The position numbers and the translations under genes are program-made. This document shows, in pieces, positions 6,401 through 24,942 of a stretch of DNA of 59,370 bases (position 1 is the stretch's first letter; each line of letters opens with the position of its first letter). This DNA is from a virus. The DNA lies in the IMG/VR virus record IMGVR_UViG_3300025872_000062, positions 1 through 59,370 of that record; one strand, given 5' to 3'. The notes under the pieces were generated by a model, which was given only the letters and a program-made list of their open reading frames with translations, searched no databases and was not told the origin of the DNA.

Positions 6401-7357
6401 AACGCTTTGCTTGTGCTGCGTAACAATAGCATTCTTCCAGTTCTTGGTACAGATGCATCGAACTTTTCTGTTCTTGGTTTTGTACGAGAAGCAGGATCTG
6501 GCTGTATTGCTCCTTTGTGTGCGCAGACTGTCAATGGGCGTGTATGGTGGCTATCCAACTCTGGCATAAGTCAATACACTGATGGATTGCCAGAGATGAT
6601 GAGTCGCCCCCTGGATAGGTTGATCAATGCAAGAAGCAACAACGCATTGTTCAATCCTACATCTGGCAGTTTGACTATAGACCAGTCGTTGCAAAGGACA
6701 AGCTCCAGCGTATTCTTTGACAAGAAGTTTATTTTTACATCTGCTCAACCTGGCGGTACGGCAGTAACAACACTTTTTGTTTTCGATACCGCAACGAATG
6801 GTTGGTTTGAATGGTCATTCCCGCAGCCGACATCTGGCAGTGCAACGCAGCCGCGTTCTATGTTTGCATTTGACTCAAACTACGATGCTCCTGAGCTTTA
6901 TGTTGCTGCATCAAATGGTCATATTTATAAGTACACTGGAACTCAGGATAAACACACAACCAGCCTTACGTCTTTTGACTGGGCATTGCTTACTCGGCAT
7001 TACGGGCAAACGTATAGCCAGGGACAAGCATACTATGCACAAAATCGAGTGCACCAAATGGATATCCATTTGGATACTTCTTCCTCACTAGCAACCAACT
7101 GGCGCATTTACAATCAAGATCAACCACAACTTGTGTCGCCAATTTTCAATAATCCATCTTTCACGTTCTATGCATCTGGAACATGGACGTTTGGCAGTGG
7201 CAATAAATCTGTTGCGATACGCAACATCAAGAAAGATCTTCGAGGTACTTCTTACTCGGTGCAACTTTCTGGAACATCGCTATCTGGAGATAACTACTTT
7301 AGGATTTATGGAATCCTTTTGCATGTTAATGAGGGCGGTATAAGGAGGGTGAACTAA
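3443..7357 (+). CDS. Large tail tubular / phage stabilisation-type protein
   Basis: About 1304 residues. The ATG at 3443 overlaps the upstream stop and has GAGGAA upstream, so it is preferred over the in-frame TTG at 3419. The N-terminus (DTYTDPNKIADGYAQRITNL, then GSLVQRKGF) matches the usual opening of podovirus tail-tube-B/P22 gp10-like proteins, in which the parameter GLNT...NVxV...KRPG region precedes beta-propeller-like repeats. Later parts fit the same group: GVESPLSKASV, an LLVYRR segment, IAIHQQRIWFSKAN, and VWWLSNSGISQYTDG. It contains HGL(V/S)xGDP..ITDV-type small domains also seen at 55116-56432. It most likely forms the tail nozzle below the connectors. Confidence 0.65.
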   Translation: MPQNVRSSAPTFQALTVGDRLWLGMDTYTDPNKIADGYAQRITNLVVQNGSLVQRKGFQCQTTNAISGSYWSSIPVRAGKNTSSTAVLVGESNGSLDTGFWKFDSNHSDALPIPMSSTGTLTFSNIEPDRVRMAQFGRYIYVAPGIAATGTDSYPLRIDTNTKSQKLLSVTLGTNLFTYNNHGLVAGDPIVITDVTAGTLPGALATNTVYFVTHATTNTFYIASSLPTSTTTSVSHITFATPSPTCTVTVVTTLKGETVPVATGLTELSPIAEPFPFVAKSIPTSNVYNIVTNGTAIGSSSQMLSNADFTGTNNVAPASWTQFVTSGNRTVTIKTAFPPNSTADYKILIDDDSDAGIFPGVYQQVTPVTETTTLYNGSVSATCLMYRFSVRAIHFDQITTPRRRPIAVRVRGTKLSGAVQVPIDGCIVEEIVNLNPTLNPDGYSIIDVIADFRDFKDELTSTGKIQVEIQAAADFGVTSGSYAQFGLYVDYAYLYPHAAVAKTSNLDTTVDPDNKLVRIRATSLNTNTAAYAGYVRDRHFYYNTTTAYTVNLTTTATHTATSPSTAPDNGTPVSFTSVGTITGIATNTTYYVVNKSGATFGLSATYDGTAITPGGTAASGLTMTAGVYLKKADSVSCQFYLNPQFQNQNPTFSIGIQSGTSTSITWGPRGAYSETLRYLTFSLSSFAKSDLENVKAIYIRVNDDYFVSTADDAAPVSQSSILFYIGQLVYNGELQNQGMYEYVFSRWKSAPAYSTDTSSATFLVKAPWTYQNSVSTYFGGVESPLSKASVPLRTNEAESRIKLTISASDFKDSSGIGYTHLLVYRRNSSTFPDGKFRLIAQVNIAGATPSLSSSSANIFLDSTTTTATSIVLIDNIGDTELLFDKPIGQTGYVYRDGKDFFPQGCESIAIHQQRIWFSKANTLYASWLLDSDNEYSLHTTIVPIATDPSLPVKGASFDISSNNDYEPIVSMVSFSGEGLSKNSSSTNALLVLRNNSILPVLGTDASNFSVLGFVREAGSGCIAPLCAQTVNGRVWWLSNSGISQYTDGLPEMMSRPLDRLINARSNNALFNPTSGSLTIDQSLQRTSSSVFFDKKFIFTSAQPGGTAVTTLFVFDTATNGWFEWSFPQPTSGSATQPRSMFAFDSNYDAPELYVAASNGHIYKYTGTQDKHTTSLTSFDWALLTRHYGQTYSQGQAYYAQNRVHQMDIHLDTSSSLATNWRIYNQDQPQLVSPIFNNPSFTFYASGTWTFGSGNKSVAIRNIKKDLRGTSYSVQLSGTSLSGDNYFRIYGILLHVNEGGIRRVN

Positions 7358-7797
7358 TGCCAACTCTAGGAACCCTTACAACTCCAGAAACATTGACAGG
7401 GCAGCGTCTTGGTGCATCAAGAATCATATATAAGAACGAAGCAACCAATCTAGGCCAGGAATTCATTCCATATACAAACGCTGGATTTGTTATTGTGAAT
7501 CTGACCGCTGCTGCCACGTTGACAGATACATCTCCGTTACTGGTCAGATGCGATACCACATCTGGTGCATTTACAGTGACATTGCCGCCTACGTCTAAAG
7601 CCTACAATGGATTCTTCCATATAGTTAAAGTAGACTCTGCGGCGAATTCAGTAACCATAGCAATAGATTCCACTGACACATGGTATGGGTCAACGACTCC
7701 ACAAACATTGGCTTCCCAGTGGAAGTCGGTTACACTTATTGCAGCTTTTGATGCAATCAGTAGTATTAGCGGATGGCATGTAGTTGCTTCTACTTAA
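7357..7797 (+). CDS. Small beta-rich virion protein, unknown
   Basis: A 146-residue protein starting in a TAATG overlap with the large tail gene. It is rich in Thr, Ser and Ala. The central part resembles the beta-strand repeats of phage fibre C-termini or decoration modules: FTVTLPPTSKAYNGFFHIVKV, then SVTIAIDSTDTWYGS. That module (a short run of Thr/Val strands, then a hydrophobic turn) is common in tail-spike-like proteins. The exact role is unknown. It is probably a tail accessory protein, as it is locked in the tail operon. Confidence 0.5.
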   Translation: MPTLGTLTTPETLTGQRLGASRIIYKNEATNLGQEFIPYTNAGFVIVNLTAAATLTDTSPLLVRCDTTSGAFTVTLPPTSKAYNGFFHIVKVDSAANSVTIAIDSTDTWYGSTTPQTLASQWKSVTLIAAFDAISSISGWHVVAST

Positions 7798-7818: not shown

Positions 7819-9639
7819 ATGGCAAAACCACCTTCTTATTATTCTTCCACTGTAAATCCTAGGGTTAGAAATCCGCGAAACCCTTTGTTTCCAGCTAGCA
7901 GTTTTGGAATTTATCCTGGTGCAACAATTGACCCAAGATATATGATTGGGGAATATCCAGTTCCATTTCTTGCATCGAATACATATGGCCTATTTGGCCC
8001 AAAAGAAGGTGGCAGTGGCATGTATATTGTGCCATCTACACCACCTAAGCCTAGAACGATTGCGCCAACAAGTTCAGGGCAAGGATCTATTTCTTTCAAT
8101 CCATTTGAAGTCCCAACTTTCTCTGTTACTCCTGGATCAGGACTATCTCCTGGCGGGAACATTCTTCCTACTTTTGCTAATCCAGCTATTCCTGAATCGA
8201 ACCTAGCTCTATTTGAACCAAGCGGTAAGCGTAGTCTTGGATCGCAATATGCCCAGTTTGTACAAGGTGTTCAATCTTGGGGCAATCCAGATGCTCGTTT
8301 GCAAAAGACAATGGCTCCATACAGTGGCGCATTGCAAACACAATCAGTCAATCGCTTCCTGCAGAAGCCGAGCGCTGAGACAGCTGTTGGTGCTGGCGCA
8401 ACGTATGCATTGAATGCTAATCCCTATTATGCGGGTGTCAATATGATTACCGGTGGTGCACTGGATAAAGGTGTTCAGCGAGGCATCTCTTGGTTTGGGA
8501 ATCAGCTTCGCGGCAATCGTAAGCCACCGCCTGATCCAGCAAAAGTCAGTCAGCAGTTGGCTCTTGCAAATGCTACTGCGGATGCGCGTAATCGCTATTT
8601 GCAGATGTATCAGGAGAGCCGCAAGAATCAACAACAGGCCGATGAGAACATTGGGCTGTATCGGCAACAAGCTGAAAACCTGGCTGCATTTGGATTGTCT
8701 CCCCGTCAAACAGTTGGTCAAGTTGCAAGCGCATTGCCCACTGCCGCAACTGAAGCTGCACTTGCCTCTACGCAAGCTAGTGCGGCACAGCGTGGAATTA
8801 CTGGTGGCGTTCCATCTGGTGCAGAAGCTGCACTTCGTGCTGGCATGGCTCAAGCTGCCGGTCAAGTTGGTACTGCCCTGACTCAAGACGTACTTAATCG
8901 TGCTGACGCAATGCGTGGTCAGCTCTTTCAGTCCGATATGTCTCAGAGACAGCAAGCTGCACAAAATGCACTTGCGTCTCTTGGCGCTGCAACGGAACTA
9001 CCATTTCAACTTCAAGCAGCAAATCTTGCTGAGCAGCGCCAGCGTGAAGCGCGTGATCAGCAAATCTATGAGCGGCGTCAAGCTGAACAAGGACAGATTG
9101 GACAACTTATTGGGCTGCTTGGCCCAAGTATTCTTGAGCGATTCGGGAAAAAAGGCGTTACTCCTACAGATGCAACTGCCACTCAACCTGGCAATGGATT
9201 TGGTGCATTGGGTGGACCAGGTGCATTTGGCATCAATCCGAATACAAACCGTGGTTATTATCTAGATCCATCTGGAGCAGCCAGGGATTTTGATACTAAT
9301 GAGATCATTACAGATCAGTGGGGTCGTCCTGTGCAAGGAGGAGATTTCAATCCTGCTCCAGACTATACGAATCCATTTACTGGTGAAACATATTTCACTG
9401 GATCGGATGGAAAAATGTATAGCACTGCAACAGGTGCTCCACTTTATCCATCTGAAGGCACTGCTGCTGCTGGAGGTGCTGCTAGTTCTGGGAAAGTTGT
9501 TGAGACGCGAACTCAAATTATGCTGGACATGGCTAATCAGAATGCAAAAGTTGGCGATGTTGCATCCGTTGTTCCTGAACAATTGAAAAAGTATGGATCT
9601 TTTGTCAAAGGGCCAGACGGATTGTGGAGGAAACTGTAA
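7819..9639 (+). CDS. Putative internal virion / ejection protein A
   Basis: 606 residues. The first 180 are Pro/Gly/Ser-rich and disordered-looking (YYSSTVNPRVRNPRNPLFP). Residues about 230-440 are an Ala/Gln-rich helical segment (QQADENIGLYRQQAENLAAF; AEQRQREARDQQIYERRQA). It ends in an amphipathic helix (IGQLIGLLGPSILERFGKK) and a Gly-rich C-terminal domain with YFTGSDGKMYSTATGAPLYP. Gln/Ala-rich helical proteins between tail genes and a giant protein are typical of podoviral internal (ejection) proteins. Its stop overlaps the next ATG (TAATG). Confidence 0.55.
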   Translation: MAKPPSYYSSTVNPRVRNPRNPLFPASSFGIYPGATIDPRYMIGEYPVPFLASNTYGLFGPKEGGSGMYIVPSTPPKPRTIAPTSSGQGSISFNPFEVPTFSVTPGSGLSPGGNILPTFANPAIPESNLALFEPSGKRSLGSQYAQFVQGVQSWGNPDARLQKTMAPYSGALQTQSVNRFLQKPSAETAVGAGATYALNANPYYAGVNMITGGALDKGVQRGISWFGNQLRGNRKPPPDPAKVSQQLALANATADARNRYLQMYQESRKNQQQADENIGLYRQQAENLAAFGLSPRQTVGQVASALPTAATEAALASTQASAAQRGITGGVPSGAEAALRAGMAQAAGQVGTALTQDVLNRADAMRGQLFQSDMSQRQQAAQNALASLGAATELPFQLQAANLAEQRQREARDQQIYERRQAEQGQIGQLIGLLGPSILERFGKKGVTPTDATATQPGNGFGALGGPGAFGINPNTNRGYYLDPSGAARDFDTNEIITDQWGRPVQGGDFNPAPDYTNPFTGETYFTGSDGKMYSTATGAPLYPSEGTAAAGGAASSGKVVETRTQIMLDMANQNAKVGDVASVVPEQLKKYGSFVKGPDGLWRKL

Positions 9640-11459
9640 TGGCTTCTGTTGCTGGCTTGCTAAGTGGATTGGCACAAGGATTTACGACTGCGCGTCAACA
9701 GCGCCAACAGGATGAACGCGAACGTCTTGCCGAATTGCGAGCAGAACAATCGCAAGCAAACGCTGTATTCAATCAAGCACAAGAAGCAGCGGCAGCTGCA
9801 CGGCGTTTTGATCTTGATGCATTGACTCGCCTACAATCAGCTGGTCTTAATCCGACTATGCGTAGGGCCATTACGGAACAGGCCAGGGCAAATGCGGCGG
9901 CAACCAGATCAATGATTAGCGGCCTTGCCAAGCAGCCTGGTGTGAAATCTCAATATGGCGATTTTGCCGCTGGGCTAATGGCGCCATCAATGTTTGAACA
10001 GCCTGATTTTGACATCAAGCCGTTCATGCCGGAAGAAGGCTTGCGCGGTATTGCTGAAAAAGCAAAGGCAGAAGCCAGGCTTGCCGCTCCTAATGCCAAG
10101 TCAAATGTCATTGAGCGCGCACGGCAAGACATGCTTCAATATGCACCGCAGGAATATGTTGATGCTGTACTTCCGCGCGTAGGAGCAAATGTAGGTTTCG
10201 ATCAGCCGACCGTTGCAACTCCACTGCAGAACCCTCAGAAGGTTCAAGATTTTGCAAAGTTGATGCCTGACTGGGTTCCTGGAGTTGGCGGAACTCGCGT
10301 TCTTCCTTCTGGTGCAAAACAGCGTGTCTATTTTAAAGATGGAAAACCTGTAGTCGATTATCAAAAAGGTTTTACTGCCGACTATGTAGCCCCAGAAGCA
10401 ACGATCATCAAGAACAAGACGATGGCCGAACAGCTTCGCCAGCTTGTTGGCATGTACGATTACAAACGGCAGAAGGCTGAATCCGATATTGCTTGGCGGA
10501 ATTTGCAAAGCGACTTCCTAAAAGAAAAAATCAAAGCCTTTCCTGCTGAATCGCAAGCTAATATTCGTGCGAAGCTTGGCAAACTTAGCAATGCTGCTTC
10601 GGATACAAATGCCAAACTACGATTGCTTTCTATTCTTTTGAGTGCACAACAACGGCAACAGCAACTGGGTATCAACGAACGTGCGCTTGGCCTTGATGTT
10701 GCCGGAAAGATAATGGGGCTTCAGAAAGAACTTCGCGGCGACTTGATGTCCCTTGAGCGACAGAAGATGGAATTTGCCGCTGCTGCTGGTATTGGCCGAG
10801 ATAAAGGTTTGAGGGGTTCATTCAGCGCAAATAAACAAAATGTTGATGCTATTCAAGCACGCATTGATGAACTTAAAGCTAATGGAACTGCTTTGCTTCA
10901 GGGAAATCTTACTGCTGCTGGATCTATTCTTGGCGGATATGGAGATACTTCGGCTATTGATGCCTCTGCCCTTCTTGCACAGCAAACATCTCGCCCAGAT
11001 GCAATGACTCAAATGCTTATGGCATCATTGATGCGTGGGCAAGCTCCTGCTACATCTGGGCCGCAAATGCCAGTCGTTGTGAATGCCGGCCAACCTGGTA
11101 TGGATCCGAATGCAATGATGGCATTGATTGCTGCTATGGGAGGTCGCGGAATGGTTCCTGGAGCAGCAGGTGGTGGTGCTCCAGGTGCTTCTCCTACTGC
11201 CGATCCAGGAACTTTCCCGCCTGGAACTATTAGTGCAGGACTTAATCCTGCACAACAAGCTGCACGATTGCAAGTATTGCAACGCACATTCCCGAGATAT
11301 GCGGCTACTCCTGCTGGTCGATCTGCATTGGAAGCATTGAAGTATTCTGCCAATATTCCTCCTGCAATTAGGCAATATATTGAACAGCAGGAATCTGGTG
11401 GACGGACTCCACCTAGAACTACATCGCCTGGAACAAGCCCTATTCCTGGTCGACGCTAA
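9639..11459 (+). CDS. Putative internal virion / ejection protein B
   Basis: 606 residues, starting at the ATG of TAATG (9639) behind GTGGAGG; an in-frame upstream start at 9624 lies inside the previous gene. The N-terminus has a short Gly/Leu segment (VAGLLSGLAQGF) followed by a long charged/Gln-rich coiled coil (RQQRQQDERERLAELRAEQS). The middle is mixed alpha/beta. The C-terminal 120 residues are Met/Ala/Gly/Pro-rich with low complexity (NAMMALIAAMGGRGM) and end in TSPGTSPIPGRR. Order and composition suggest a second ejection protein acting with the 4486-residue product. Confidence 0.55.
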   Translation: MASVAGLLSGLAQGFTTARQQRQQDERERLAELRAEQSQANAVFNQAQEAAAAARRFDLDALTRLQSAGLNPTMRRAITEQARANAAATRSMISGLAKQPGVKSQYGDFAAGLMAPSMFEQPDFDIKPFMPEEGLRGIAEKAKAEARLAAPNAKSNVIERARQDMLQYAPQEYVDAVLPRVGANVGFDQPTVATPLQNPQKVQDFAKLMPDWVPGVGGTRVLPSGAKQRVYFKDGKPVVDYQKGFTADYVAPEATIIKNKTMAEQLRQLVGMYDYKRQKAESDIAWRNLQSDFLKEKIKAFPAESQANIRAKLGKLSNAASDTNAKLRLLSILLSAQQRQQQLGINERALGLDVAGKIMGLQKELRGDLMSLERQKMEFAAAAGIGRDKGLRGSFSANKQNVDAIQARIDELKANGTALLQGNLTAAGSILGGYGDTSAIDASALLAQQTSRPDAMTQMLMASLMRGQAPATSGPQMPVVVNAGQPGMDPNAMMALIAAMGGRGMVPGAAGGGAPGASPTADPGTFPPGTISAGLNPAQQAARLQVLQRTFPRYAATPAGRSALEALKYSANIPPAIRQYIEQQESGGRTPPRTTSPGTSPIPGRR

Positions 11460-11481
11460 ATCTGTGTAATAATAGAAAAAT

Positions 11482-14400
11482 ATGCGACGAAGTAATCCTT
11501 CTACAAATTCGTTTGCTGATTACTTGCAACTTCTGCAAGACGATAATTTGCTGCTTACCAAACCAGGGCAGCAATTATTCTTCAACGTTCTATCAGAAGG
11601 TCGCAAAACTAATAAGATCTCTCAGGATCAGTACGATGCATTGGTTCAAGCTCAGAATCAACGCGTAAATCAGATCCTGAATACTCCACTTATTAATCCG
11701 GCTACTGGGCAACCTGCATATAAAGTTACGCAGCCAAGGCAAACGCAATATAGCAAAGCCACTGGTCAGCCTATGGAACCAACGTTGGTTCCTCAGACTG
11801 GTCGCGATTTGTTTTTTGGCGGAAGTCTTCGTGCTGAATATCCGTCAACTGCAATCATTGGTGCACGTCAGGAAGCTATTCGTCAACTTGGCGTAGAGCA
11901 GCAAAAAGAAGAGGATCGTATCAAGGGAATCCTCAATATCCTCCAGCCTGGCGCTACTGATATTGGTGGACGATTCCGTCTTGCTGCTGAACGCGCCAAG
12001 GGTGCCGTTAAAGGATTTCAAGCATCTGCTGGTATTCAGGGAGTTGCTCCGAAACAAACGCCTGAAGAGTTGGCAGCTCTATTCAACATGCCAGACCTTG
12101 CAGAAGTGCAACCTGAAGATGCTGGCAAATTGCTTCAGCAGGAAGGTGCTGCTTTTGGAGCATCGGTCCAACAAGCAATTGCCCCCACTGTTGGTGGCGG
12201 CATACTTGGTCGTGGTGCCGGTCCTATTTCGTCTGTATTCAATCTTGGAACGAAACGATGGGGACCAGCTGCAACTGCTGGAATCTCTGCTGCATTGTCA
12301 TTTATTGGCGCGTCTGGAACTAATGCGTTGATGGAGCGGCGTATGCGTTCAGTCTATGGTGACGACGTATACGAAAATCAAATCAAGCCAATACTTGGAA
12401 CATCCATGCTTGAAAACCCAGAAGCATATTTTGCTGGGCAGATAGCTACCATTCCATTGCAAGGTGGTTTGAATCTATCTTCTGGTATTGGAACACGGGC
12501 TGGATTTGGTACGCTGTTCAATGCAATTCGGAATCGACCTTCTACCATTATTGGAAGGGCATCAGATCTTGGCGCTAGTGCAAAGAAGCTATCCGATGCA
12601 GCAAATGCTGGTCAAATTTTGCAGAACACGCTAAATGCGCCGAATAAGTTTTCTGAATTTCAGACTGCATTTCTGCAAAAGATTGGGCAAGCATCCAAGG
12701 AATCTATTGATAGTTATGTTCAGTTCAAGCCTACTGGTGGACTTGGCGAACGCATTGGTCAATATTCAGCTCTTAGCCGCACAATGCCTGGCTTCGCTGA
12801 ATTCACTTCAGATATTGTTGGTGAACAAGCATCCAATCTTGGATTGGCTGCTTATGACTATATGGTGGAGTGGCGTAAATTCCAAAACGGAGAAACCGCT
12901 GAAGCACCATCAATCAAAGATGCTCTAGTAAATCTCGCACTTGGATCTTTGTTCATCAAGGATACGAAGTTCCAGAACATGATCTCCAATGTTGGAGGCG
13001 CAATCGGCGGTGCTGGACTAGCAGTAGGCAAGAAGATTCCTGGAGTATCTGCTGGAATTAATGCTCTTGAAAAGCGTTACTACCAAGGCAATGTTGGATT
13101 TGTAAATTCTCTTCTTGAACAACAATTTGAAGACATCAGCAAAGGAGTTATTCCTGCACCTGCCGGTGGCGTACGTTTCAAATCTGGTGGCGTAGCTCCT
13201 GGCGCTGGAGTTGAAGCTCGTGGATTGATTGGCGCGGAAGTTCCTATTTCTGTTGGTGGTGGAAAGATTGCAATCTACAATCCTGAAACCAAAGAAGTTC
13301 GCTATTCTAATTACAGCGACGTCTACAAAACATTTACTGAACCGACTAGCGCAGAAGCAAATCAACAAATTGCAGGTGCCATCTCTTCACTTCCAGTAGA
13401 ACGTATTGGCAAGGGAATTACAGGAAGGCTATCCGCATTTGGCGGAAGGGACGTTGTCAAGGGCGAAGGAGATAGCCGACAACAACTTGTTGGAGTTATC
13501 GGCAATCATGTCGTAGTACGAGAAAATCCTATTGGCGATGATGGAATTCGTTTGTCGCAACCGGAATACAGCGTTCTGCGCGTATCGGATCTTGAAGAAA
13601 ACAATCGATCCATTGCAGAACAAATGTTTGGTGAACTTGGCATAACTGCCTCGGACACTCCGTATAACTATAATCCCTCTAATCCGCGAACTGGTGCTCC
13701 GTCTCTTCAGGATATTAAAGTTGCACAAGACGATATCTTTAGGATTTTCAAGCCAAAAGGCAGCACAAAAGAAGCTTACAAAGCTATCAATGAATACTTT
13801 AAAAGCTATGTGTGGATTGATAGCAATACGCAACTGCGTGGTCGAGTAGTTGGACGCGCTGCAAATAATGACGCTATTGTCCAGCTGCTTGGATATGACA
13901 CTGCAATCATTCGTGTCAATCCCGTAAACCTTGAAAAAGGCGGAAAGCTAAGTGCGACTGCTCCTGGTGATGTTGTAAACCTTTCCAACATTATCTCGGA
14001 AGCAAATCTCTCCGAGGCGCAACGGCAATATCTTCAGGAGTATGACGATATTGCAGATACTCCGAATGCAGTTTTTGCAAGTAAGAATATAGACTCTCAG
14101 AATTTTGCTATTGCACTTACGCCTCAACAAGCCTCTGCGGCAAGGGCATTTTTTCCTGCACTGCAACAAGCGCAGTCCCGTATTGATCAAGCTCAAGATC
14201 CAGTCAAAATTGAACAAGACATCAAACAACTCAAGTCTAAATTCCGAAACAAGATTCTTGGCGTGTTGGCAAAAGCGGATTCCGAATTTGAACTGGGAAC
14301 TGTTATTGTCGCCGATACTGCGCGTGGGCGAGAAAATGGAATCGTTATTGACAATACCGATTTCGGTCCTGTTGTCGCATTTGAATCAACTGGATGGCGT

Positions 14401-17400
14401 GGAGTAATTGTTCAGCCTGGATCGATTGTGTCTGGGCAAAAAGTATCTCCATCTCTTCTTGACCAACAAGAACAACCATCTACCAAACCAAGCAAGCGCA
14501 AAGAGCCTAAGCAAAAGAAGCTGCCTAAGGTTCAAGAAGAACAGACTGTTTCTCAAGAACCTAAACTTGAGGAAGAAAAACCTGTTGTTAAAAAACGCAA
14601 GCAGGGAAAACAAGAACCTGTAATTGAAACTACGGAAGAAGAGACCAAGCCGACTGCTGTTTCAATTGGCGATTACAACGATATCGCAAGTAAGTTTGGA
14701 AATCATGTAACGACTCAAATGTCCGATGACCAACGCCGTGTTGCGTTGAGTCTTTCAGATTTTATTGAGGTTGTAGTCCGTGATCCAAACTCGCCTGATG
14801 AAGAAGCCGCAACGGTTGAGCGTATTCCTGTTTTCTATCAAGGGAAAAACCTCTATCATTCGGCTGTTCGCAAGATTGCGAATAGTCAATACAGTCGCCT
14901 TACCGATAGAGAGAAGGCATTGCTTGCTGCTCTTGGCGTTCCAGATTATAGGAATAAGGCCAATAAACTTTGGTGGAATGGACAATACCAACTTGTTCAA
15001 TTCCTTACCGATCCTCAACTTAAGAATATTGTAAACAAGCTTTTCGATGAGATGTCCGATCCTGGAAATTTGGATTTGGATATGCCCACCGTGCTTGTTG
15101 ATATCAATGAGCCACCAGCAACGGAAGCACCTTCTGTAATCCCGGCACCTCAAGAGAAACCTATTGAGGTTGAATCTCTTGCCCCTATTGTCGAAGAGCC
15201 TGTTGCGGTTCAGCCAGAACCGCTTCTTGATGAAGAAGAAGCGGCTATTGAACAGGACATTACTGCGCCTCCTGTTATTGATGAGACTGTAATTCCTCTC
15301 CCGCAGGAAGAAGAGCCTATTGTTCCGCAGATAGAAGCGCCTACGATTCTAGCATTGCCTACAAAGCCAGAGGTGGCAATCGAGGTAAAGCCTGAAGATA
15401 TACCTGCTCAACCTGATCCGATTATCGTTCCTGAAAATGCTCGGATAGATGAAGATCCGATCATTGATATTTCCGTATTGGAAAATCAGCGACTCGGAAC
15501 GATGCTTGTCAAAGACATCAATGTCGATGCAGGTCGATTCCAGTTCCGTGCACTATCTGGAACAGAGGGTGTTTCTGGAAGTACGGCTGATGCCCAGGCA
15601 TGGAATCGCGATCTTGCTGGTGTAGTTGCTGTATGGCGTGACCCAGCAAATAACAAAGTCTATATTGTCAATGGGCACAATCGGTTTGCCCTTGCCAAAC
15701 GATTTGGCGTCAAGGAACTCGATGTTGTGTTCCTTGATTCTGCGTCAGCGGAAGAGGCACTGTTCACAGGTGCCCTGATCAATATTGCTGGTGGGAATGC
15801 TACTCCCGTAGATGCTGCAAAAATATTCCGCATGCAGCCGCGCTCGAAAGAAACGCTGCGCCAGCTAGGTGTTTCCATGAATAGCAACCTTGTTCAGCAA
15901 GGCTTGTCTATCTCTCGTCTTCCGTATCAGGTATTTCAAGCTGCTATCAATGATTCGTTCGATAGTCCAAAGATGGCACTATACGCAGCCATTGCAGAAA
16001 ACCCAGATATGGACGAGCGTCGCATGGCGCTCCTCTGGGAAAAAGTGCGGACAAAAGAAGATGGAGTTCCGTCGACATTCAAATCTTCTGTCACTATTGA
16101 TGGTATTCGTGAACGAGTTCTTGATCTTATTGGTTCGGAGTTGGAGTTTGAAGAAGGTGCTCTTCCAGGTATGGAAGAGTTTGCCGCCTTTCGTTCTGCA
16201 TCCGATGAGTCAGTAGAACTGCGTGGAGCAATTCGTCGATATCTCACGCAAGAAAAGCAACTGCTGCAACGCCTTATTAAAGATCAAAACAAAGACATAC
16301 TCGATAGGGCTGGCAACAAACTAAATAACGATCAGAACCGCGCCATTGCTGAATCTAATGCGGATATTCTAAATGTCTGGTCTCAAATTGTAAGGCTTGA
16401 TAAGCAGTTCCGAGACTACATTGAAAGTCTTGCCAGCAATCTTCCTAAGGGTCAAATTAGCAAACAAGGGCTGGATGAGTTCGTTCGATCAAATAGTGAA
16501 TCAATCCGAAATCAGGTTCTCACTGCAAGAGAGCGTTTGCTCAATAGGGCTTCTGGAAATGTTGAAATTCCTACTACTCAAGAAGAACCCATTGCGCCTA
16601 CGGAAACAGTAGAAGATATATCGCTATTTGAACAGCCAGAAGAACCTGTTGCCGTTGAAGATGTTGTCGCTGAAGAACCTGTGCGTGAACGAATTGAAAA
16701 CACGCCGGTCATTCCAATATCGTTTGAAAAAGATGGAATAGAAGCGCTTCAATCTTCTAAAGATGGAATAGAAGCTCTTCAATCTGCTCTTGATAATTTG
16801 AACGAGCTTAAGACTCAATACCCATATGGGCTATATAAAGTTGATGAAGATGACACTTCGTATATGCGAAGTGATCTTGCTTGGTTTGATAGCAAATTTC
16901 TCGCAGATGATAGAGAGACCATTGAAAACGAAGGCACTTCTGTATATCTAGAATTTGTAGATACATACAATGAATTCCTAGCTGAAGATAGTGATATTGC
17001 ATCAGAGTATGAAATAGCTGGTGCTGCACTTGCTACTGTTATTCGGAAAACTTTTATCAATGGGTTTCCTGGCGAGGAGCCATTGAATATTGCAGTTCCT
17101 GAATACAACCAACTTGATCCATCTTTTTACAAAGATGATGAATCGTACATGCCGCTTGTTTGGCAACAAAAAGCATTTGCCAAGCGCAAAAATATAAAAA
17201 AGAAATATGAGTCTTTTATCAGAGACTGGGAAATAGAACTTGCAAATAGACTAGCGGATAGGTATTTGCCTGTCTTTGCAGATTCACTTGACATTGATAT
17301 CAGGACTGAACGACCTGCAGCACAAAAGCCAACTGAAATTGCACCAGAAGAGCAAATCTCTGAACCCAGTGTTGCTGTTGAGAATGCTCCTGAAATAGAA

Positions 17401-20400
17401 TCTATTCCGCCATCCAAGATGGAAGAGATTCGTTCATCTGTAGATGGATTTATTTCAGATATAAGGGAATCGCCAACAAATGTTTATACCAATAAGTATG
17501 GTGACCCTGGGCAACCAAAGACCGTTGTTTATGACATAATTAATTATGTTGACAAAACGTCTGTATTTGAATCGATTAAAAATCATTTTGGAATCAATGG
17601 CAAATTTGCCACAAAGGATGAGGTGATCGATGTCCTAAAGGATATTCTTGTTGGGTATCTACCTCGTACAGATTGGCGATCTGATCTTCAGAATACCTAT
17701 AGTAACCTTGACCCAGATTACTTTAGTGATTTCAACTATTGGAATCAAATTGCTGATCAGCCAGAACTGTCTCGAGTATTTGAAAAAGAACGAAGGCTGG
17801 GTGAGCGCAAACAGTTGTTCGATAAATTCAAAAACGAATTTAATTATCGAACACGCCTAGCCCAAGAAGATATTGCAGTTGAATACCTAAAAGAGTTCCC
17901 TGAGCTTCCAGCAATCATTGGGGTTCAAGATGCAGATCCATACGTTGTTTTTGGAAAAGACAAATCTCGCATATTGTCTGAACTTGGATTCTATAAATCT
18001 ACTGATGAGCAAGTAGCGTATAGCATCCTTGGCAACATGTTCCCCTGGACGCAAATTGATAGTGGCGATTATGAAAAAGAGCTTGCCACTATGTCTCGAT
18101 CAGAGATCATCAATTCCATGGCGGCATCCATACGGAATCAATTGCTGTCGCCAGAAAATGATGTAATCTCATCTATCGAGGCAGAAGCATATCCAGATGC
18201 CATCAAATTGATGGTAGATGATATTGTTTCAGATTATTCCCAACTGTTCTTCGACAATATTCCAGTATTGTCTAGCCGCGATGATTTGCAATCTTCTCCT
18301 ACAGAGGAAGAAGGGCAATTAGGTTTGTTCCAGTTCATTATGAACGGAACGGATCAACCTAAAACAAAGATTCACATCAACAATCCGCGCCTAACTCTTA
18401 CAGAAGACGAGAAACAAAAGCTGCGCGAATCTGGTTTTGTAGTCAATAACCGTATCGATGCAGCTGCTGTTGCTTTGTTTGCAAGTCAAGAGTCTCCAGT
18501 TATTGCTCAAGAGATTACGATAACGGAGATGCCATCTTCTGGCATGCTGGCACAGGCATCTGTTGTTAGTCCTCGTATCGATCTCAAGTTCAATAAACTT
18601 AGCATTGAGGCGTACAGGATTACTGACAAGGCAACCCTGAAGGTCAACATTGCCAGGCTTCTTGCCGTGACGCAAGAAGGTCAGAAGATGTCCGAAGATG
18701 AGTTGAACTCAGCAGCCGAGAACATTGCCAACTATATGGATATGCTCGGTCATTCCGTAGTTTCTCGTCGCCTTAGAGCAATGGCCGATGCCGCAATGCT
18801 CAATGTTTTTGGCAGAAGGTACATGGGCGGAGCGCAGATTTTCCAAACTGATCGCGAAGCCGACTTTATGTCCTATGACGAATTCATGGCTCGAGATCTT
18901 GGACCTTTGTATTTCCAGTTCAAGAAGAAATTTAATGCCATTTATGGAGCTGCTACTGGCAAGGCAACATCCAGGCTGTCTTCAAGTCAGATATTTGAAT
19001 CGACTAATCCTGATATTGTTCGCAGCCGTGCTGCTGCTCTGGCTGAACTGGCAGAAGAAGAAACAGAGAAGTTCCTACGCGATAAATTTCCTGCAATTGG
19101 ACACATATTGAATGTTTCCAAGCCAAAAGACATGCTTGGAACAAAGGGGATGCATACAACTGCTATCGATCCTGATACAGGTCGTGCCGTTCGATTTATT
19201 ACTGCATTCCATAATTCTAATATCGAAACCGTTTTGCATGAGATTGCGCATGGCTGGCTTGAAGGATTGCCATACTATGCTGCCCATGAACTTGCAACGG
19301 CAATGGGTAAGACGCTTCGTATTCCTAGCCCGACCAATACGTCAATCATTCCTTATGAAATGCATGAGGAATTTGCGTATGGCATGATGTTGTCTTTCGC
19401 CAATATGGATCTCGGAACATTTGGCGAAAGCAAGGGTTGGATTGGAACAACTTCTGGAAGGAAGATGAATGAATCCAATCCTATCTATCAGCAGCTTCTA
19501 GGCATTAGTAAATACGCGCGTGAAATGTATCAGAACATGCAGCTCACGCCCAATATTTTCAATAGCGTATATCATTTGCGATTCCGGCCAGAAGGTGAAG
19601 GAGAAGCAGGTACGTTCTCTGGAACATGGCGCGTGTTTTATCAAACAGAGAAAAAAGTAAAATCCAAAATCAGTTCCAACGGGAAGCAGCAATACAGGAC
19701 CATTAAAGTTCCAAACAACAAGCTGTATCTATGGCGCGGCGCTCCTATTGTTTGGACTGATTACTCAACCGGAAAGCCTGTTTCATATGAAGCCGACATT
19801 CTAAATGATGTTGGGCGTACTAGTAATCCTAGTCATTACGTTCAAGTTCGGACTTATTTGACTCAAGACAGGCTTGAATCTGAAAGTAGAATTCAAACTA
19901 TTCAGGCTGGCAGTATCCAATATATTGGAGGAACGATTTCTGGTATTCCTCCTGCTGTTCAGTTCACAATGTCTAAGTGGCTTGCTTTTAATCGCGGCCT
20001 TCTTGGTGTTGAAAGTTCCGTACCAGAACAACGCAAAATTGCTCGCGAGCGCATTGAAGAAGCTGCTCAAGGACGAATCTCCGAAGAAGCTCAAGAGGCA
20101 TTCAAGTCTCGTGGAGTCGGAGAGTTCTATACTAAAAATCAAAAGATCAATGTCATTGCCAGGAACTTTGGTCTTCCATATTTGAAATCGACTGCATTGA
20201 CGGCAATCTCCAAAAACATTTCAGATCAGTCCGTCAACAAGTTGTGGGCAAACAGAACGACATTGATGCGGCAATATGCTGACGATCCCATTGCCACACT
20301 GCAAAAGAATCCAGAGCTTTGGTCTTTGCATCAAGCGGCAATTTCCGAACGCATCAAATATCGATTGAATCAAAATGCCAAAGAGAAACCTGGTTTGCGC

Positions 20401-23400
20401 CAGCAAGCCTTGAAGACTTTGGCGGACCCTAAGCGTTTGCAGCGATTGACGAAATCAATTCTGCGCGCACATCTTGGAAGCATTGCTTCCAAGGCTAGTG
20501 TTTTTCAGGATATGCGTAGGATTTTTAATCCGCCTACGTCTGGATACCCTCCTCAGTTTGAAATAATGACTGATGGATTTGGTGCTCCGACATATTCCAG
20601 GAAGCGAAAAATTCTTGGCATCAACGATCTTCGAGCAAACAAGAAACCATTCTTCGTTAATCTTGACGACGGATCTGTCGTTGGATATCCATACATTCCA
20701 CCTAAATCCAACCTGTGGAAAGAATTGGACGCAGAAGCCGACTCGTTCATTGAAGATATTGAAAATGCAAAATATTCCAGCCGATGGTCTGAGAATAGTT
20801 TGAATTTCAATATCCCATCCATACAGCTGGAATTCAATGGAGAGATGGTTGAGTTTGGCAATACAAACATCCAGCAATTGAATACGCTGATTTATAAGCA
20901 GCTTCAGAATTCAGGGATTACTTTTGATCCGCAAAGCTCTGACATAAGCTACTATGTAAATCATCCTTATTACTATATTGCTGGAACTCTTGTCAGTGCT
21001 AGGCCGCATCAGTTTGCCAGGTTGAAACAAGAACAGTTCTACGACTTCCAACCTAATCTTCAATCTAATTCTGATTCTGATGTGACGAGCCAGGTGGAAC
21101 AGATTGGAAATATCGATGAGGCTATCCCTGCCGATTTGATTGACGAGTCAAACGATTTTGATGGAAGTGAGCCACTTAGGAATGCAATCATTGCCGACTC
21201 TGGCAGGTCTGTTCCAGATTATGGCTATCAGCAATTCACTACCGAGCGTTATGCCAATGAGACTCAACGATCAAATGTTGTGTCGGAGCAAGTCTTTGTC
21301 GAAACAGCGCAGCGTGGCGTAGATGGTGTCTATCAATCTGCCGTTAGATCGCTTGCAAATGGCGAGCCTTCTGAATACAAGCGGAAGATCAACTGGATCA
21401 CAAACTATGCTGCTGACGTGATTAATGGGGCTTTCCATTCAAATGAAGCAGCTATTGATGGATCGTTCTATGGCTCTGCTGTTGTCAATGAATCCAAGGC
21501 TCACTGGGTTGGAAGCATAAAAGTTGGCAACACAAACATGTTGTCTGCCATTGCAAAGGCAGCTCATGTCGGTAGGCAACTTGGTCAACCAAATACGTTC
21601 ATAACTGCAGACGGTTCCAACCTTGAATATGGATTCTCAAACGAAGGACATGCCGTTGTGCCGGCAATGGATATTCGTTTTACATCTCCTGTTGACAGCA
21701 TTGCTGCAAAACAATTTGCCAATCAGTATTCTGATGTTGTTAATGGGTTGGAGATTTCCGATGCTGGGATGTCAATGAAGATATTCATGGTCCCAGATCA
21801 ACAGATTGGAAGGTCTGAATCCAATGCGTGGACAAGCAGTGCAAAGACAGCAGTCTCCGAATTTTTCTCCCCTGGACAAGAAGCGCGAGCAGGTACGACC
21901 GTATCGCAAGTCAATCCAATCCGTCTTAAGCTCTGGAACCTGGGCAGTTCCGAACTTGGAGGAATCGGACGTTTTACCGAATACGAGCGAGTTCTCGATA
22001 TCGTTCAAACCAACGGAATCGACGAAGCCATTCCGTCCAAAGAAGTAGAGCAGCAAATCAGGTCGAAGCGAATGCGAGATGCATTCAATAAAACCTTCTC
22101 GAATGTATTTGGAAAGCAATTCCAAATCTCCGAGAATGTAATGTTTAGGCGATCTAATGCAAGCTTCAATGTCAAATCCATAATTGCTGAACATAGGCAA
22201 GAGCAGCCTGTTGATGGAACGGATGTCGACAAGAATGTTCTGTTCGCCTATCAAAAACTTATCGACCAACTAAAAAAACAACACAAGTCCATTGGCATTA
22301 CATTCGAGTTTTCCAAGCAGCGAACTGAAAATGGAGAACCAATTCGTAATGCATCTGGTGTTTTGCAGTTTGCAGATATGTATGATGGGCGACAAGAAGT
22401 TGCCGCTTATGACATTCGGCAGAATCGCCATTTGTTTATTCATCCAGTGACCGAAGAGTCATTTGGTATTGGCGTGGAAGAAATGCAAAAGCATCCATTG
22501 TGGGCAATGTCCACTATCAAAGATGCAAATGGCGAATCCATGCGCTGGATTGATGTTTTGAATGGCATCCAGCAAGCATTCAATGTTTCGATGCATGATG
22601 CTAATTATCAAGGAGAAGGAGAGAGCCTTGGATATATTGCCCATGCAATGATTACTGAAGATCCCTGGGCGATCTGGGCACTTGCCAATGAAACAATAGT
22701 TACGGATGCATATGTCACAAGCAACATAGATCGCATTGGTCTCAATGGTGAAATCAACTTTGCAACCAATGTAACTGGAGATTTCCAGTTGCATAAACTA
22801 TCTCTTCCCCCGCTGGAAGATATCCTTTGTGGATGCAATGCTGTTGACGATGTCATTCGCGGATTCGCAAAAACCTTGCGGTCTGATTTTGATAACTACT
22901 ATGGAACTAGCCCTATTCTTGATCCTGGTATGACTGGATCTGGTAATGCCATTGAAAGTGCCAATGGGCATATTCTTGGATTCCATTCTCCGAATGCGGA
23001 AAAGGCTATCATTGATCCTAAGTTTGGAACCGTAACTGCAGATTTCGCAGAAGAGGATTTTGGGTTGATCAGGAACATGACGTTTGTCAATGTTCCAAAT
23101 CCAACACCTTCTTCAGTGCGCAATGCAGTAATCAATCCTGCGCCTCCTGCTCCTAATCCAAATAGGACTCAGACTGCACTCAAGGCTGCGCGCAACTCCG
23201 CTTTGTTTACGAATGAGATATTTAAGGCTGGGGCTGCTGGTGACGCATCTCCAATCTTGATGCAGAATTACATTCTGACTGTTGACAACCCTGCTGCCTT
23301 GGCAAAGCAGATTAAATCTTTGAAGCGTGTGTTTATGAATCCAAACCTTGGATTTGAATTCAAGGGAAAGGTTTATAACGCCGATGGAATGTACGGAAAG

Positions 23401-24942
23401 AAAGTATTCCATCAATCGATGGATGAGATGGTTCGCAGCCGACCTACATATCAATATGCAAAGTACCTAGGTCTTACACTTGCAGCTGCCAATCTTGATA
23501 ACGATCTTGATGAGCTTAGGCAGACGAATCCTTCTGCGACACTTCAGGATATTGATGAACTTGCTCCGTCCATCAATCAAGAGATCAACATCAAGTGGAT
23601 GCGTCATCTTCCTGGGCATGGGCAATCGCAAAGGATGTATTCCCTTGCCAAAGATGTAACCAAGATGACGGCATTCGATGCATTCGCAAGGCATCTTGTT
23701 GATTGCGGCTACAATCCGACTCCTATTTTTGAGACGGATAGCAACGGCGATGTCGTGATTGATGACAACGGAAGGCCAAAGATTCTAAATACTGCATGGA
23801 ATAGGGCCTTGCGCGATGTATCGTCGCTTATGAATGTTGCATCTGGAGACGTTCGGTTCTCGGATGATGCGGAACGAGATCGTCTTATGAACGAGGCTTA
23901 TAGTTATGCCTTGTTCAGCCCTCGATGGTGGGCAAGCCGAATGATGTTGGATAGGACAGGCCGAACTATCTTTGAGAACGTTTCCAATCTTGCTGGAGCA
24001 GTTGTTGGAAAGTCGGACTACGGCACAAACATCCTTAGGATGAACCGCCTGGATGAACGATCCATTCTTCGGCGGGATCCGCACGTAGGCGCTTACCACT
24101 GGAAGTTGATGTCTCAGGCATGGGGTCTACTTGCTGGCCTGTTCGCTCTTATCTATGGATCGCAAGCCCTGTATCCGCATACGATGGAAGTATCCGCTGA
24201 TAAATCTGGTACGCGTGTTCGTATTGGAGACTATACATTCCGCTCACCTGGTGCTATCAGTACACAGCTTGAATGGATGAATGCGGTATTCAATGGATTT
24301 ACCGAGTGGTCCGCGCGCAAGGGAACCGAAGGAGAACGCCCTCTGATCTCACTCGTGTGGGATAAGGTTGCTGGAAATCTTATGTCCCGATCCAGTCCAA
24401 TCGTTGGCTTTGTTAGTGAAGCTGTTACTGGTCGAGATGCTTTTGGTCAACCAGCTTTTATTCCTGACGAAGCTTTGAAGACTTTCGGAAATGAAGTCGT
24501 TGCTCCCGTGCTAAAGGGATTCGGAGTCAAGGGATTCTCTACACCAGATATGAATAGCGCGTTTACAAAGCGCTTTATGTGGTGGTGGCTGCATGACATC
24601 ATGGACTCCTACAAGATGATGCGAGATACAAATGTGGGTACTGCAGAAGCCCTTCTGAAATCTTCGCTCATGGGCGGATTCTCCTTCCTTGGAGGTCGTG
24701 TCCTATATGACCCGAAGGAACTCAGGGCTGCGCGCGAAGGGCAGGAGCGAATGGAAGGGCCAAGTCTATTGACCACCCTTCAGGGGAAGACATCGGGAAT
24801 GGATCTTCTATCTGGACGCCTGGAACTTGGCGGAGAAGATTGGAATGCTCCAGTACCTGCGTCTGACGAAGAACTGTGGCGGTCTGCACCGAGGCCGTAC
24901 ATGATTGGGTCGCCTCCAGAAGACTGGAGGGCTTGGTACTAA
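11482..24942 (+). CDS. Giant polyvalent virion protein with ParB-like and HExxH peptidase modules
   Basis: A single 4486-residue reading frame, about 23% of the genome. Visible parts: Gly-rich hydrophobic stretches near residues 235-290 and 500-530; a Lys/Glu-rich linker about 1000-1060; a Pro/Glu linker about 1205-1325; a ParB/sulfiredoxin-like module about 1340-1530 with G1398-H1399-N1400-R1401; another acidic linker; a zinc metallopeptidase motif H2586-E2587-x-x-H2590 with a candidate third ligand at E2629/E2630; and a hydrophobic helix near 4215 (LLAGLFALIYGSQAL). Such mixtures are known as phage polyvalent proteins, thought to be packaged, ejected and to act on the host chromosome or cell proteins early in infection. 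No clear RNA polymerase motif was seen, so N4-type vRNAP is not supported. The SD before the ATG is weak. Confidence 0.8.
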   Translation: MRRSNPSTNSFADYLQLLQDDNLLLTKPGQQLFFNVLSEGRKTNKISQDQYDALVQAQNQRVNQILNTPLINPATGQPAYKVTQPRQTQYSKATGQPMEPTLVPQTGRDLFFGGSLRAEYPSTAIIGARQEAIRQLGVEQQKEEDRIKGILNILQPGATDIGGRFRLAAERAKGAVKGFQASAGIQGVAPKQTPEELAALFNMPDLAEVQPEDAGKLLQQEGAAFGASVQQAIAPTVGGGILGRGAGPISSVFNLGTKRWGPAATAGISAALSFIGASGTNALMERRMRSVYGDDVYENQIKPILGTSMLENPEAYFAGQIATIPLQGGLNLSSGIGTRAGFGTLFNAIRNRPSTIIGRASDLGASAKKLSDAANAGQILQNTLNAPNKFSEFQTAFLQKIGQASKESIDSYVQFKPTGGLGERIGQYSALSRTMPGFAEFTSDIVGEQASNLGLAAYDYMVEWRKFQNGETAEAPSIKDALVNLALGSLFIKDTKFQNMISNVGGAIGGAGLAVGKKIPGVSAGINALEKRYYQGNVGFVNSLLEQQFEDISKGVIPAPAGGVRFKSGGVAPGAGVEARGLIGAEVPISVGGGKIAIYNPETKEVRYSNYSDVYKTFTEPTSAEANQQIAGAISSLPVERIGKGITGRLSAFGGRDVVKGEGDSRQQLVGVIGNHVVVRENPIGDDGIRLSQPEYSVLRVSDLEENNRSIAEQMFGELGITASDTPYNYNPSNPRTGAPSLQDIKVAQDDIFRIFKPKGSTKEAYKAINEYFKSYVWIDSNTQLRGRVVGRAANNDAIVQLLGYDTAIIRVNPVNLEKGGKLSATAPGDVVNLSNIISEANLSEAQRQYLQEYDDIADTPNAVFASKNIDSQNFAIALTPQQASAARAFFPALQQAQSRIDQAQDPVKIEQDIKQLKSKFRNKILGVLAKADSEFELGTVIVADTARGRENGIVIDNTDFGPVVAFESTGWRGVIVQPGSIVSGQKVSPSLLDQQEQPSTKPSKRKEPKQKKLPKVQEEQTVSQEPKLEEEKPVVKKRKQGKQEPVIETTEEETKPTAVSIGDYNDIASKFGNHVTTQMSDDQRRVALSLSDFIEVVVRDPNSPDEEAATVERIPVFYQGKNLYHSAVRKIANSQYSRLTDREKALLAALGVPDYRNKANKLWWNGQYQLVQFLTDPQLKNIVNKLFDEMSDPGNLDLDMPTVLVDINEPPATEAPSVIPAPQEKPIEVESLAPIVEEPVAVQPEPLLDEEEAAIEQDITAPPVIDETVIPLPQEEEPIVPQIEAPTILALPTKPEVAIEVKPEDIPAQPDPIIVPENARIDEDPIIDISVLENQRLGTMLVKDINVDAGRFQFRALSGTEGVSGSTADAQAWNRDLAGVVAVWRDPANNKVYIVNGHNRFALAKRFGVKELDVVFLDSASAEEALFTGALINIAGGNATPVDAAKIFRMQPRSKETLRQLGVSMNSNLVQQGLSISRLPYQVFQAAINDSFDSPKMALYAAIAENPDMDERRMALLWEKVRTKEDGVPSTFKSSVTIDGIRERVLDLIGSELEFEEGALPGMEEFAAFRSASDESVELRGAIRRYLTQEKQLLQRLIKDQNKDILDRAGNKLNNDQNRAIAESNADILNVWSQIVRLDKQFRDYIESLASNLPKGQISKQGLDEFVRSNSESIRNQVLTARERLLNRASGNVEIPTTQEEPIAPTETVEDISLFEQPEEPVAVEDVVAEEPVRERIENTPVIPISFEKDGIEALQSSKDGIEALQSALDNLNELKTQYPYGLYKVDEDDTSYMRSDLAWFDSKFLADDRETIENEGTSVYLEFVDTYNEFLAEDSDIASEYEIAGAALATVIRKTFINGFPGEEPLNIAVPEYNQLDPSFYKDDESYMPLVWQQKAFAKRKNIKKKYESFIRDWEIELANRLADRYLPVFADSLDIDIRTERPAAQKPTEIAPEEQISEPSVAVENAPEIESIPPSKMEEIRSSVDGFISDIRESPTNVYTNKYGDPGQPKTVVYDIINYVDKTSVFESIKNHFGINGKFATKDEVIDVLKDILVGYLPRTDWRSDLQNTYSNLDPDYFSDFNYWNQIADQPELSRVFEKERRLGERKQLFDKFKNEFNYRTRLAQEDIAVEYLKEFPELPAIIGVQDADPYVVFGKDKSRILSELGFYKSTDEQVAYSILGNMFPWTQIDSGDYEKELATMSRSEIINSMAASIRNQLLSPENDVISSIEAEAYPDAIKLMVDDIVSDYSQLFFDNIPVLSSRDDLQSSPTEEEGQLGLFQFIMNGTDQPKTKIHINNPRLTLTEDEKQKLRESGFVVNNRIDAAAVALFASQESPVIAQEITITEMPSSGMLAQASVVSPRIDLKFNKLSIEAYRITDKATLKVNIARLLAVTQEGQKMSEDELNSAAENIANYMDMLGHSVVSRRLRAMADAAMLNVFGRRYMGGAQIFQTDREADFMSYDEFMARDLGPLYFQFKKKFNAIYGAATGKATSRLSSSQIFESTNPDIVRSRAAALAELAEEETEKFLRDKFPAIGHILNVSKPKDMLGTKGMHTTAIDPDTGRAVRFITAFHNSNIETVLHEIAHGWLEGLPYYAAHELATAMGKTLRIPSPTNTSIIPYEMHEEFAYGMMLSFANMDLGTFGESKGWIGTTSGRKMNESNPIYQQLLGISKYAREMYQNMQLTPNIFNSVYHLRFRPEGEGEAGTFSGTWRVFYQTEKKVKSKISSNGKQQYRTIKVPNNKLYLWRGAPIVWTDYSTGKPVSYEADILNDVGRTSNPSHYVQVRTYLTQDRLESESRIQTIQAGSIQYIGGTISGIPPAVQFTMSKWLAFNRGLLGVESSVPEQRKIARERIEEAAQGRISEEAQEAFKSRGVGEFYTKNQKINVIARNFGLPYLKSTALTAISKNISDQSVNKLWANRTTLMRQYADDPIATLQKNPELWSLHQAAISERIKYRLNQNAKEKPGLRQQALKTLADPKRLQRLTKSILRAHLGSIASKASVFQDMRRIFNPPTSGYPPQFEIMTDGFGAPTYSRKRKILGINDLRANKKPFFVNLDDGSVVGYPYIPPKSNLWKELDAEADSFIEDIENAKYSSRWSENSLNFNIPSIQLEFNGEMVEFGNTNIQQLNTLIYKQLQNSGITFDPQSSDISYYVNHPYYYIAGTLVSARPHQFARLKQEQFYDFQPNLQSNSDSDVTSQVEQIGNIDEAIPADLIDESNDFDGSEPLRNAIIADSGRSVPDYGYQQFTTERYANETQRSNVVSEQVFVETAQRGVDGVYQSAVRSLANGEPSEYKRKINWITNYAADVINGAFHSNEAAIDGSFYGSAVVNESKAHWVGSIKVGNTNMLSAIAKAAHVGRQLGQPNTFITADGSNLEYGFSNEGHAVVPAMDIRFTSPVDSIAAKQFANQYSDVVNGLEISDAGMSMKIFMVPDQQIGRSESNAWTSSAKTAVSEFFSPGQEARAGTTVSQVNPIRLKLWNLGSSELGGIGRFTEYERVLDIVQTNGIDEAIPSKEVEQQIRSKRMRDAFNKTFSNVFGKQFQISENVMFRRSNASFNVKSIIAEHRQEQPVDGTDVDKNVLFAYQKLIDQLKKQHKSIGITFEFSKQRTENGEPIRNASGVLQFADMYDGRQEVAAYDIRQNRHLFIHPVTEESFGIGVEEMQKHPLWAMSTIKDANGESMRWIDVLNGIQQAFNVSMHDANYQGEGESLGYIAHAMITEDPWAIWALANETIVTDAYVTSNIDRIGLNGEINFATNVTGDFQLHKLSLPPLEDILCGCNAVDDVIRGFAKTLRSDFDNYYGTSPILDPGMTGSGNAIESANGHILGFHSPNAEKAIIDPKFGTVTADFAEEDFGLIRNMTFVNVPNPTPSSVRNAVINPAPPAPNPNRTQTALKAARNSALFTNEIFKAGAAGDASPILMQNYILTVDNPAALAKQIKSLKRVFMNPNLGFEFKGKVYNADGMYGKKVFHQSMDEMVRSRPTYQYAKYLGLTLAAANLDNDLDELRQTNPSATLQDIDELAPSINQEINIKWMRHLPGHGQSQRMYSLAKDVTKMTAFDAFARHLVDCGYNPTPIFETDSNGDVVIDDNGRPKILNTAWNRALRDVSSLMNVASGDVRFSDDAERDRLMNEAYSYALFSPRWWASRMMLDRTGRTIFENVSNLAGAVVGKSDYGTNILRMNRLDERSILRRDPHVGAYHWKLMSQAWGLLAGLFALIYGSQALYPHTMEVSADKSGTRVRIGDYTFRSPGAISTQLEWMNAVFNGFTEWSARKGTEGERPLISLVWDKVAGNLMSRSSPIVGFVSEAVTGRDAFGQPAFIPDEALKTFGNEVVAPVLKGFGVKGFSTPDMNSAFTKRFMWWWLHDIMDSYKMMRDTNVGTAEALLKSSLMGGFSFLGGRVLYDPKELRAAREGQERMEGPSLLTTLQGKTSGMDLLSGRLELGGEDWNAPVPASDEELWRSAPRPYMIGSPPEDWRAWY
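16729..16788 (+). repeat. 30-bp tandem duplication inside the giant gene
   Basis: Two adjacent 30-base units encode KDGIEALQSS and KDGIEALQSA, differing at two bases. They sit in the low-complexity linker after the ParB-like module. This is a recent in-frame slippage or duplication of ten codons. Confidence 0.85.

Follow-up and report, generated by a model that had tools for sequence, protein, structure and literature searches.

A 4,486-residue, nearly cysteine-free polyvalent protein as a putative ejection protein with exchangeable cargo in a lineage of short-tailed phages

The window analyzed here is a stretch of 59,370 nucleotides (positions 1 to 59,370 of the IMG/VR virus record IMGVR_UViG_3300025872_000062). 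It contains a giant gene at 11482..24942 on the plus strand, the strand of all features given below in this form, whose product is a putative polyvalent ejection protein with 3 Cys in total. The uninterrupted frame reported for this locus in the initial annotation is present: it opens with ATG and runs for 4,486 aa with zero internal stops over 11482-24942. A frame of 4,486 codons cannot be accidental, and a giant frame is also seen at the same locus in related phages. A module map built from iterated profiles over 31 proteins divides the giant into an N-terminal block (residues 1-985; 11482..14436), a first bay (residues ~990-2527), a zincin domain (residues 2528-2641), a second bay (residues ~2642-3910) and a C-terminal chassis (residues 3880-4486; 23119..24939). 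The N-terminal block is also present, at ~33%, in the giant of the related record G002, the closest relative, and its residues 580-985 are common to 7 giants. The first bay comprises a ParB/Noc/KorB-fold module (residues 1335-1627; 15484..16362) and an orphan stretch (residues 1700-2290; 16579..18351), the second is mostly orphan or common to few giants, and the lengths of these bays range from 365-1,544 aa and 885-3,145 aa, respectively, across the 6 proteins with an alignable N-terminal block (the window giant and 5 relatives). The orphan stretch of the first bay and that at residues 2720-3260 (19639..21261) have no detectable relative in other giants, and residues 3255-3830 (21244..22971) are common to the G002 giant and partly to further giants. 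Pro/Glu-rich linkers, which had likewise been noted before, flank the ParB-type module at residues 1201-1335 (15082..15486) and ~1691-1750 (16552..16731). The terminal membrane-prone helices proposed alongside them were not recovered, as no 19-residue segment of the giant has a mean Kyte-Doolittle value of at least 1.6, the highest being 1.32 (residues 4209-4227) and 1.18 (residues 266-284).

The whole giant gave no match in sequence searches of Pfam, NCBIfam and PDB, and sequence and profile searches of it for a peptidoglycan hydrolase domain were equally negative. A scan of viral contigs with either the whole giant or the ParB block alone as query found no match, and in GenBank phages and plasmids searched with the giant the ParB block alone matched. 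An exact 38-mer from this block is absent from every other IMG/VR contig, so the window giant is known from one assembly. Its relatives were instead recovered with the terminase and with profiles as queries: the large terminase (48191..49924) retrieved 80 relatives with 69-100% identity, and the C-terminus of the giant as query added relatives beyond the terminase set (3,299-5,539 aa), reaching down to 2,845 aa; a genome scan with the same C-terminus gave no match. In both sets each relative whose record spans the region has one giant ORF of 2,845-5,539 aa in the same place. These giants are scarcely alignable with each other, yet the major capsid (53137..54162), portal (50061..52259) and terminase proteins of the same phages are 57-90% identical. 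We describe the group as a freshwater-type one that is common among environmental phages. Contig L005, which is 99.98% identical to the window over 12.2 kb and does not cover the giant, crosses from the window end into the window start; hence, the record represents a near-complete, circularly mapping genome. Positions 1-763 and 58608-59370 are mutual repeats of ~94% identity, and the ends of the window reflect a circular map with strain variation at the join. Separately, the G+C content increases to 62-67% at positions 32000-38000, compared with about 45-50% in the remainder of the window; the Arg-rich frames present there on either strand are unconvincing.

The giant is encoded among virion genes as the last and largest member of a cassette. 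This begins with a tail nozzle-like protein of 1,312 aa and normal cysteine content (8 Cys; 3419..7357), which is assigned by position only (the place of T7 gp12) and lacks a PHROG match, and continues with a 146-aa protein conserved in the cassette (7357..7797), a 606-aa Cys-free protein in a gp14-like position (7819..9639) and, directly upstream of the giant, a 611-aa Cys-free protein in a gp15-like position (9624..11459). The giant ORF closes a transcription unit, with the genes that follow lying on the opposite strand. Of 14 relatives examined over this region, all 14 have a protein of 539-733 aa (0-1 Cys) immediately upstream of the giant, and those with sufficient coverage also show, ahead of it, a nozzle-like protein of 1,100-1,416 aa (3-8 Cys), a ~140-aa protein and a Cys-free protein of 249-606 aa. 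The ejection proteins of podophages have been reported to be encoded in the same order, gp14-gp15-gp16, with the largest gene last (PMC8954989). No sequence similarity was detected between the giants and T7 gp14-16 or N4 gp50-51, nor profile similarity to T7 gp16. Eight related records (G005, G006, G010-G013, G017 and G018) have a further large ORF poor in Cys (about 1,300-1,753 aa) upstream of terL, which is possibly another internal virion protein; its counterpart in the window is a 419-aa Cys-free ORF at 44853-46112.

The most distinctive compositional feature of the giants is their exclusion of cysteine, which was scored by a binomial against the other ORFs of the same phage. The window giant has 3 Cys against about 59 expected (P 8e-22), and Cys is absent from 18 of the 27 lineage giants and limited to at most 4 residues in the others, with binomial P values of about 1e-8 to 1e-30 across the giants. 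T7 gp15 and gp16 and N4 gp50, gp51 and gp52, all of which are known ejected proteins, likewise contain 0 Cys. The absence of Cys from N4-like virion RNA polymerases has been linked to their route across the tail and the periplasm (PMC3715699, PMC2784036). Cysteine exclusion, known from these polymerases, offers a simple means of recognizing ejected proteins from sequence. Cysteine poverty is not unique to them, since other ORFs of at least 400 aa with 0-1 Cys are present in the lineage genomes. A CGC tripeptide stands at residues 3783-3785 (22828-22836) of the otherwise almost Cys-free giant; residue 3785 was considered as a conserved catalytic Cys and rejected, as it aligns with a Cys of the G002 giant and is absent from other members of the block.

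At the center of the giant lies a gluzincin domain (residues 2528-2641; 19063..19404) with predicted ligands H2586, H2590 and E2629 and general base E2587. The gluzincin-type HExxH motif that had been placed at residues 2586-2590 is confirmed there as HEIAH (19237..19251), and, with a downstream Glu ligand, marks a lineage-wide gluzincin. By composition HExxH is expected 0.03 times in the window giant; across 16 relatives it was observed 16 times, once per protein, against 0.52 expected in total. A profile of the domain matches 20 giants, and in the 20 aligned domains E2587, H2590 and E2629 are invariant and H2586 is retained in 18. The two remaining giants, L241 and L242, have EELSH instead of HExxH (at their residues ~1386), thereby losing the first zinc ligand and retaining the other zincin residues; their peptidase is probably inactive on this basis, and proteolysis is therefore not obligatory across the group. 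No match to Peptidase_M78 (PF06114) was found in the window giant. The zincin region of G005, from another clade of the lineage, matches this family over the curated cut-off and aligns with the window domain in hhalign (probability 86%, E 5e-6). The domain is probably a zinc protease.

The module in the first bay had been described as ParB/sulfiredoxin-like, with a GHNR motif at residues 1398-1401 (15673..15684). The motif is in place, where it aligns with the GERR box of ParB/Noc proteins, and a structure search places the module in the ParB superfamily. It is of the Noc/ParB/KorB type rather than the DdrB type, as PF18763 gave no match (6e-42 for P1 DdrB as positive control) and hhalign of the module profile against P1 DdrB gave no signal. 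An AlphaFold2 model, with a mean pLDDT of 77 (mostly 85-97 over the initial ~145 residues, with lower values at 21-30), spans an NTP domain and a following helical DNA-binding domain. In a Foldseek search of PDB its best 29 matches are all to ParB, Noc, KorB or Spo0J (top E 8.6e-6, probability 1.00), but with moderate TM-scores of up to 0.55 on target, which argues for a common fold rather than close kinship. A scan for the module yielded 291 viral stretches matching a pattern, of which 260 encode a relative; 80 loci were kept, and 29 viral copies were aligned. The resulting 29-sequence profile of this ~290-aa module matches Noc with E 0.013, and G-H-x-R, at the nucleotide-binding GxxR box, is invariant in all 29 aligned copies. 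At the position of the ENxQR box the window module has Ile1433-Asn1434, with the Asn retained and the catalytic Glu replaced. Among the PHROGs, the module has a match in the C-terminal extension of portal proteins of phrog_21 (E 2e-31) and a weak one to a ParB-like partition family; the ParB family is also matched, at 6.5e-4, by a relative fused to a portal. Within the lineage the module is confined to the window phage, and elsewhere it occurs in marine podophages, including the gp16-position protein of P-SCSP1u, and in portal fusions. The simplest reading of this distribution is horizontal acquisition of the module into the first bay. At the portal-fused and other Cys-normal loci (L164-L233) the module has 4 Cys in 10,705 aa, and the remainder of the proteins bearing it mostly contains 1-2.4% Cys.

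As judged from profile matches, the C-terminal ~600 aa form the universal core of the lineage giants: residues 3911-4161 are present in all 27 that reach the region and residues 4206-4411 in 20. A model of the C-terminus (pLDDT 70, pTM 0.69) resembles viral proteins named 'Large polyvalent protein associated domain-containing' (E 4e-12, TM 0.62), and had no match among solved structures in PDB. Pfam LPD38 was not matched, and the LPD38 control genomes were equally silent; profiles of the C-terminal block and the zincin gave no usable signal against T7, N4 and P1 proteins. A ParB fold and a gluzincin in one chain, encoded among virion genes, support the proposal that the giant is a polyvalent protein, and the predicted fold of the C-terminus is compatible with it.

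The two bays, one between the N-terminal block and the zincin and the other between the zincin and the C-terminal block, were found by sequence comparison to hold contents that are exchanged between relatives. Between zincin and C-terminal block the cargo is a C5-cytosine methyltransferase in some giants (Pfam E 5e-26 for L246) and an AAA_33 P-loop kinase in others; in G002 the kinase is inserted directly after the region matching residues 3255-3830 of the window giant. The methyltransferase retains its PVC and ENV motifs. In the L246 giant (frame 3077-11611) residue 1999, the methyltransferase nucleophile, is the sole Cys in 2,845 aa, and other methyltransferase-bearing giants retain the nucleophile among their 2-4 Cys. 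As the catalytic Cys is kept in these proteins, the pattern argues for Cys exclusion with function-preserving exceptions; a sole remaining Cys that serves a DNA methyltransferase as nucleophile points to cargo that would be active after delivery. The window also encodes a separate cytosine-methyltransferase-like ORF (38629-39741), which in phmmer matches no giant, the methyltransferase-bearing one included.

We consider it likely that the giant is a polyvalent ejection protein with exchangeable cargo, the largest of three such internal proteins in the virion of a short-tailed phage. In favor of the earlier proposal of a packaged and delivered multi-enzyme cargo, the order of the cassette matches that of podophage ejection cassettes and Cys is nearly excluded; hence, the giant appears to be packaged and ejected. 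Judging by gene order, it would be synthesized late and packaged at the portal together with the 606- and 611-aa proteins, and its avoidance of Cys suggests that it leaves the virion unfolded, via tail and periplasm. The conserved N- and C-terminal blocks would constitute a delivery chassis, whose first bay carries in the window phage a ParB-type module, with the predicted fold of a DNA clamp, between two Pro/Glu linkers. The central gluzincin, which is degenerate in two relatives, probably cuts the carrier and so frees the cargo, or else has a host protein as its substrate. Inside the cell, the ParB-type module might bind the phage DNA as it arrives, gated by NTP, and either shield this DNA or mark it so that host enzymes replicate or maintain it. 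We favor this role only tentatively among those conceivable for the module, and it is the weakest step of the mechanism. A single ejection protein would in this case act as an exchangeable cargo carrier, its middle being replaced among phages with capsid and terminase proteins 57-90% identical. Such giants make the threading and refolding of giant proteins, and activities delivered before any gene expression, accessible to experiment.

A somewhat unlikely alternative is that the ParB-type module works in the ejection machine itself, as a clamp at the portal or core that holds or threads DNA entering or leaving the head. The module occurs elsewhere fused behind portal proteins (phrog_21), and in the giants it belongs to a core protein that should be stacked on the portal; both locations are in contact with packaged DNA. 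The model of the module includes both an NTP domain and a DNA-binding helical domain. However, other giants of the lineage lack the module, so that ejection as such is independent of it; the module is also Cys-free even behind Cys-normal portals, which would fit ejection too, although ParB folds may be Cys-poor anyway. It is also conceivable, if rather unlikely, that an NTP-gated clamp built into the ejection apparatus, within giants here and behind the portal elsewhere, closes on DNA as it passes the vertex, such that a clamp is in place on the genome by the time it reaches the cell; a clamp on the entering genome would then shield the DNA or recruit host replication. Less probable still, the giant could have a structural role only, as an internal core protein poor in Cys whose domains are inactive remnants. 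Such a protein would account for the orphan stretches at residues 1700-2290 and 2720-3260, the degenerate zincin of two relatives and the replaced catalytic Glu of the ParB-type module, but the zinc ligands are retained in 18/20 aligned zincins despite diverging surroundings, and the methyltransferase of the relatives keeps its motifs and, in the giant of 2,845 aa, the one Cys that this protein has. That the giant is an early effector outside the virion, merely placed in the late region, is very improbable, for its position at the end of a transcription unit would allow this, but its linkage to the cassette is conserved in all relatives and its extreme Cys exclusion is hard to reconcile with a protein remaining cytoplasmic.

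The initial annotation had also drawn attention to the lack of a phage-encoded polymerase, and had suggested that an early delivered protein may act on host proteins or the chromosome ahead of transcription. The lack of a polymerase stands for family-A DNA polymerases, none of which was recognized in the window or in nine related records; for RNA polymerases the family search is uninformative, its control genomes being silent. An N4-like RNA polymerase hidden in the giant was considered as a candidate and rejected, phmmer of N4 gp50 against all giants giving no match. Cyanophages of the MPP-C group are also devoid of a DNA polymerase gene (PMC9860041). Since the enzyme is unrecognized in this phage, its relatives and MPP-C cyanophages, it is possible that the ParB-type module of a delivered giant takes part in passing the phage genome on to replication by the host.

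Neither polyvalent proteins nor giant ejected proteins are new as kinds of protein. The window giant resembles the polyvalent proteins of Iyer et al. 2017 (PMC5512222) in combining disparate domains in one chain, with a zincin hub, a ParB domain and a late-gene context; unlike in those, its ParB domain is Noc/ParB/KorB-like and unmatched to ddrB-ParB by sequence, and exchange takes place among close relatives. Phage P1 DdrB also unites ParB and zincin, and DdrB, DarB and DarA are packaged and ejected as anti-restriction proteins (PMC12810830), but DdrB matches Pfam ddrB-ParB and the window module does not. The Noc/ParB/KorB CTPases share with this module the fold of the N-domain and DNA-binding domain and the GxxR box, whereas the window module lacks the catalytic Glu of ENxQR and is embedded in a giant. 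N4 vRNAP (gp50, 3,500 aa), which is packaged and ejected (PMC12633501), is similarly giant and Cys-free and adjoins smaller Cys-free ejection proteins, but the window giant has no sequence similarity to the polymerase. The T7 gp14-gp15-gp16 ejectosome has the same order after tail tube and nozzle genes, with the largest last and gp15 and gp16 Cys-free; it differs in that there is no sequence similarity, no lytic transglycosylase was found in the window giant and the latter is >3x the size of gp16. The 2,563-aa protein of the cultured MPP-C cyanopodovirus P-SCSP1u has the same ParB module (29% identity) followed by a later HExxH, is Cys-free and occupies the gp16 position, but shows no profile similarity to the C-terminal blocks or zincin of the window lineage. 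Set against these systems, what is new is the lineage itself, a ParB subtype outside DdrB-ParB, the exchange of cargo among close relatives and a near-total exclusion of Cys in which a catalytic nucleophile is retained.
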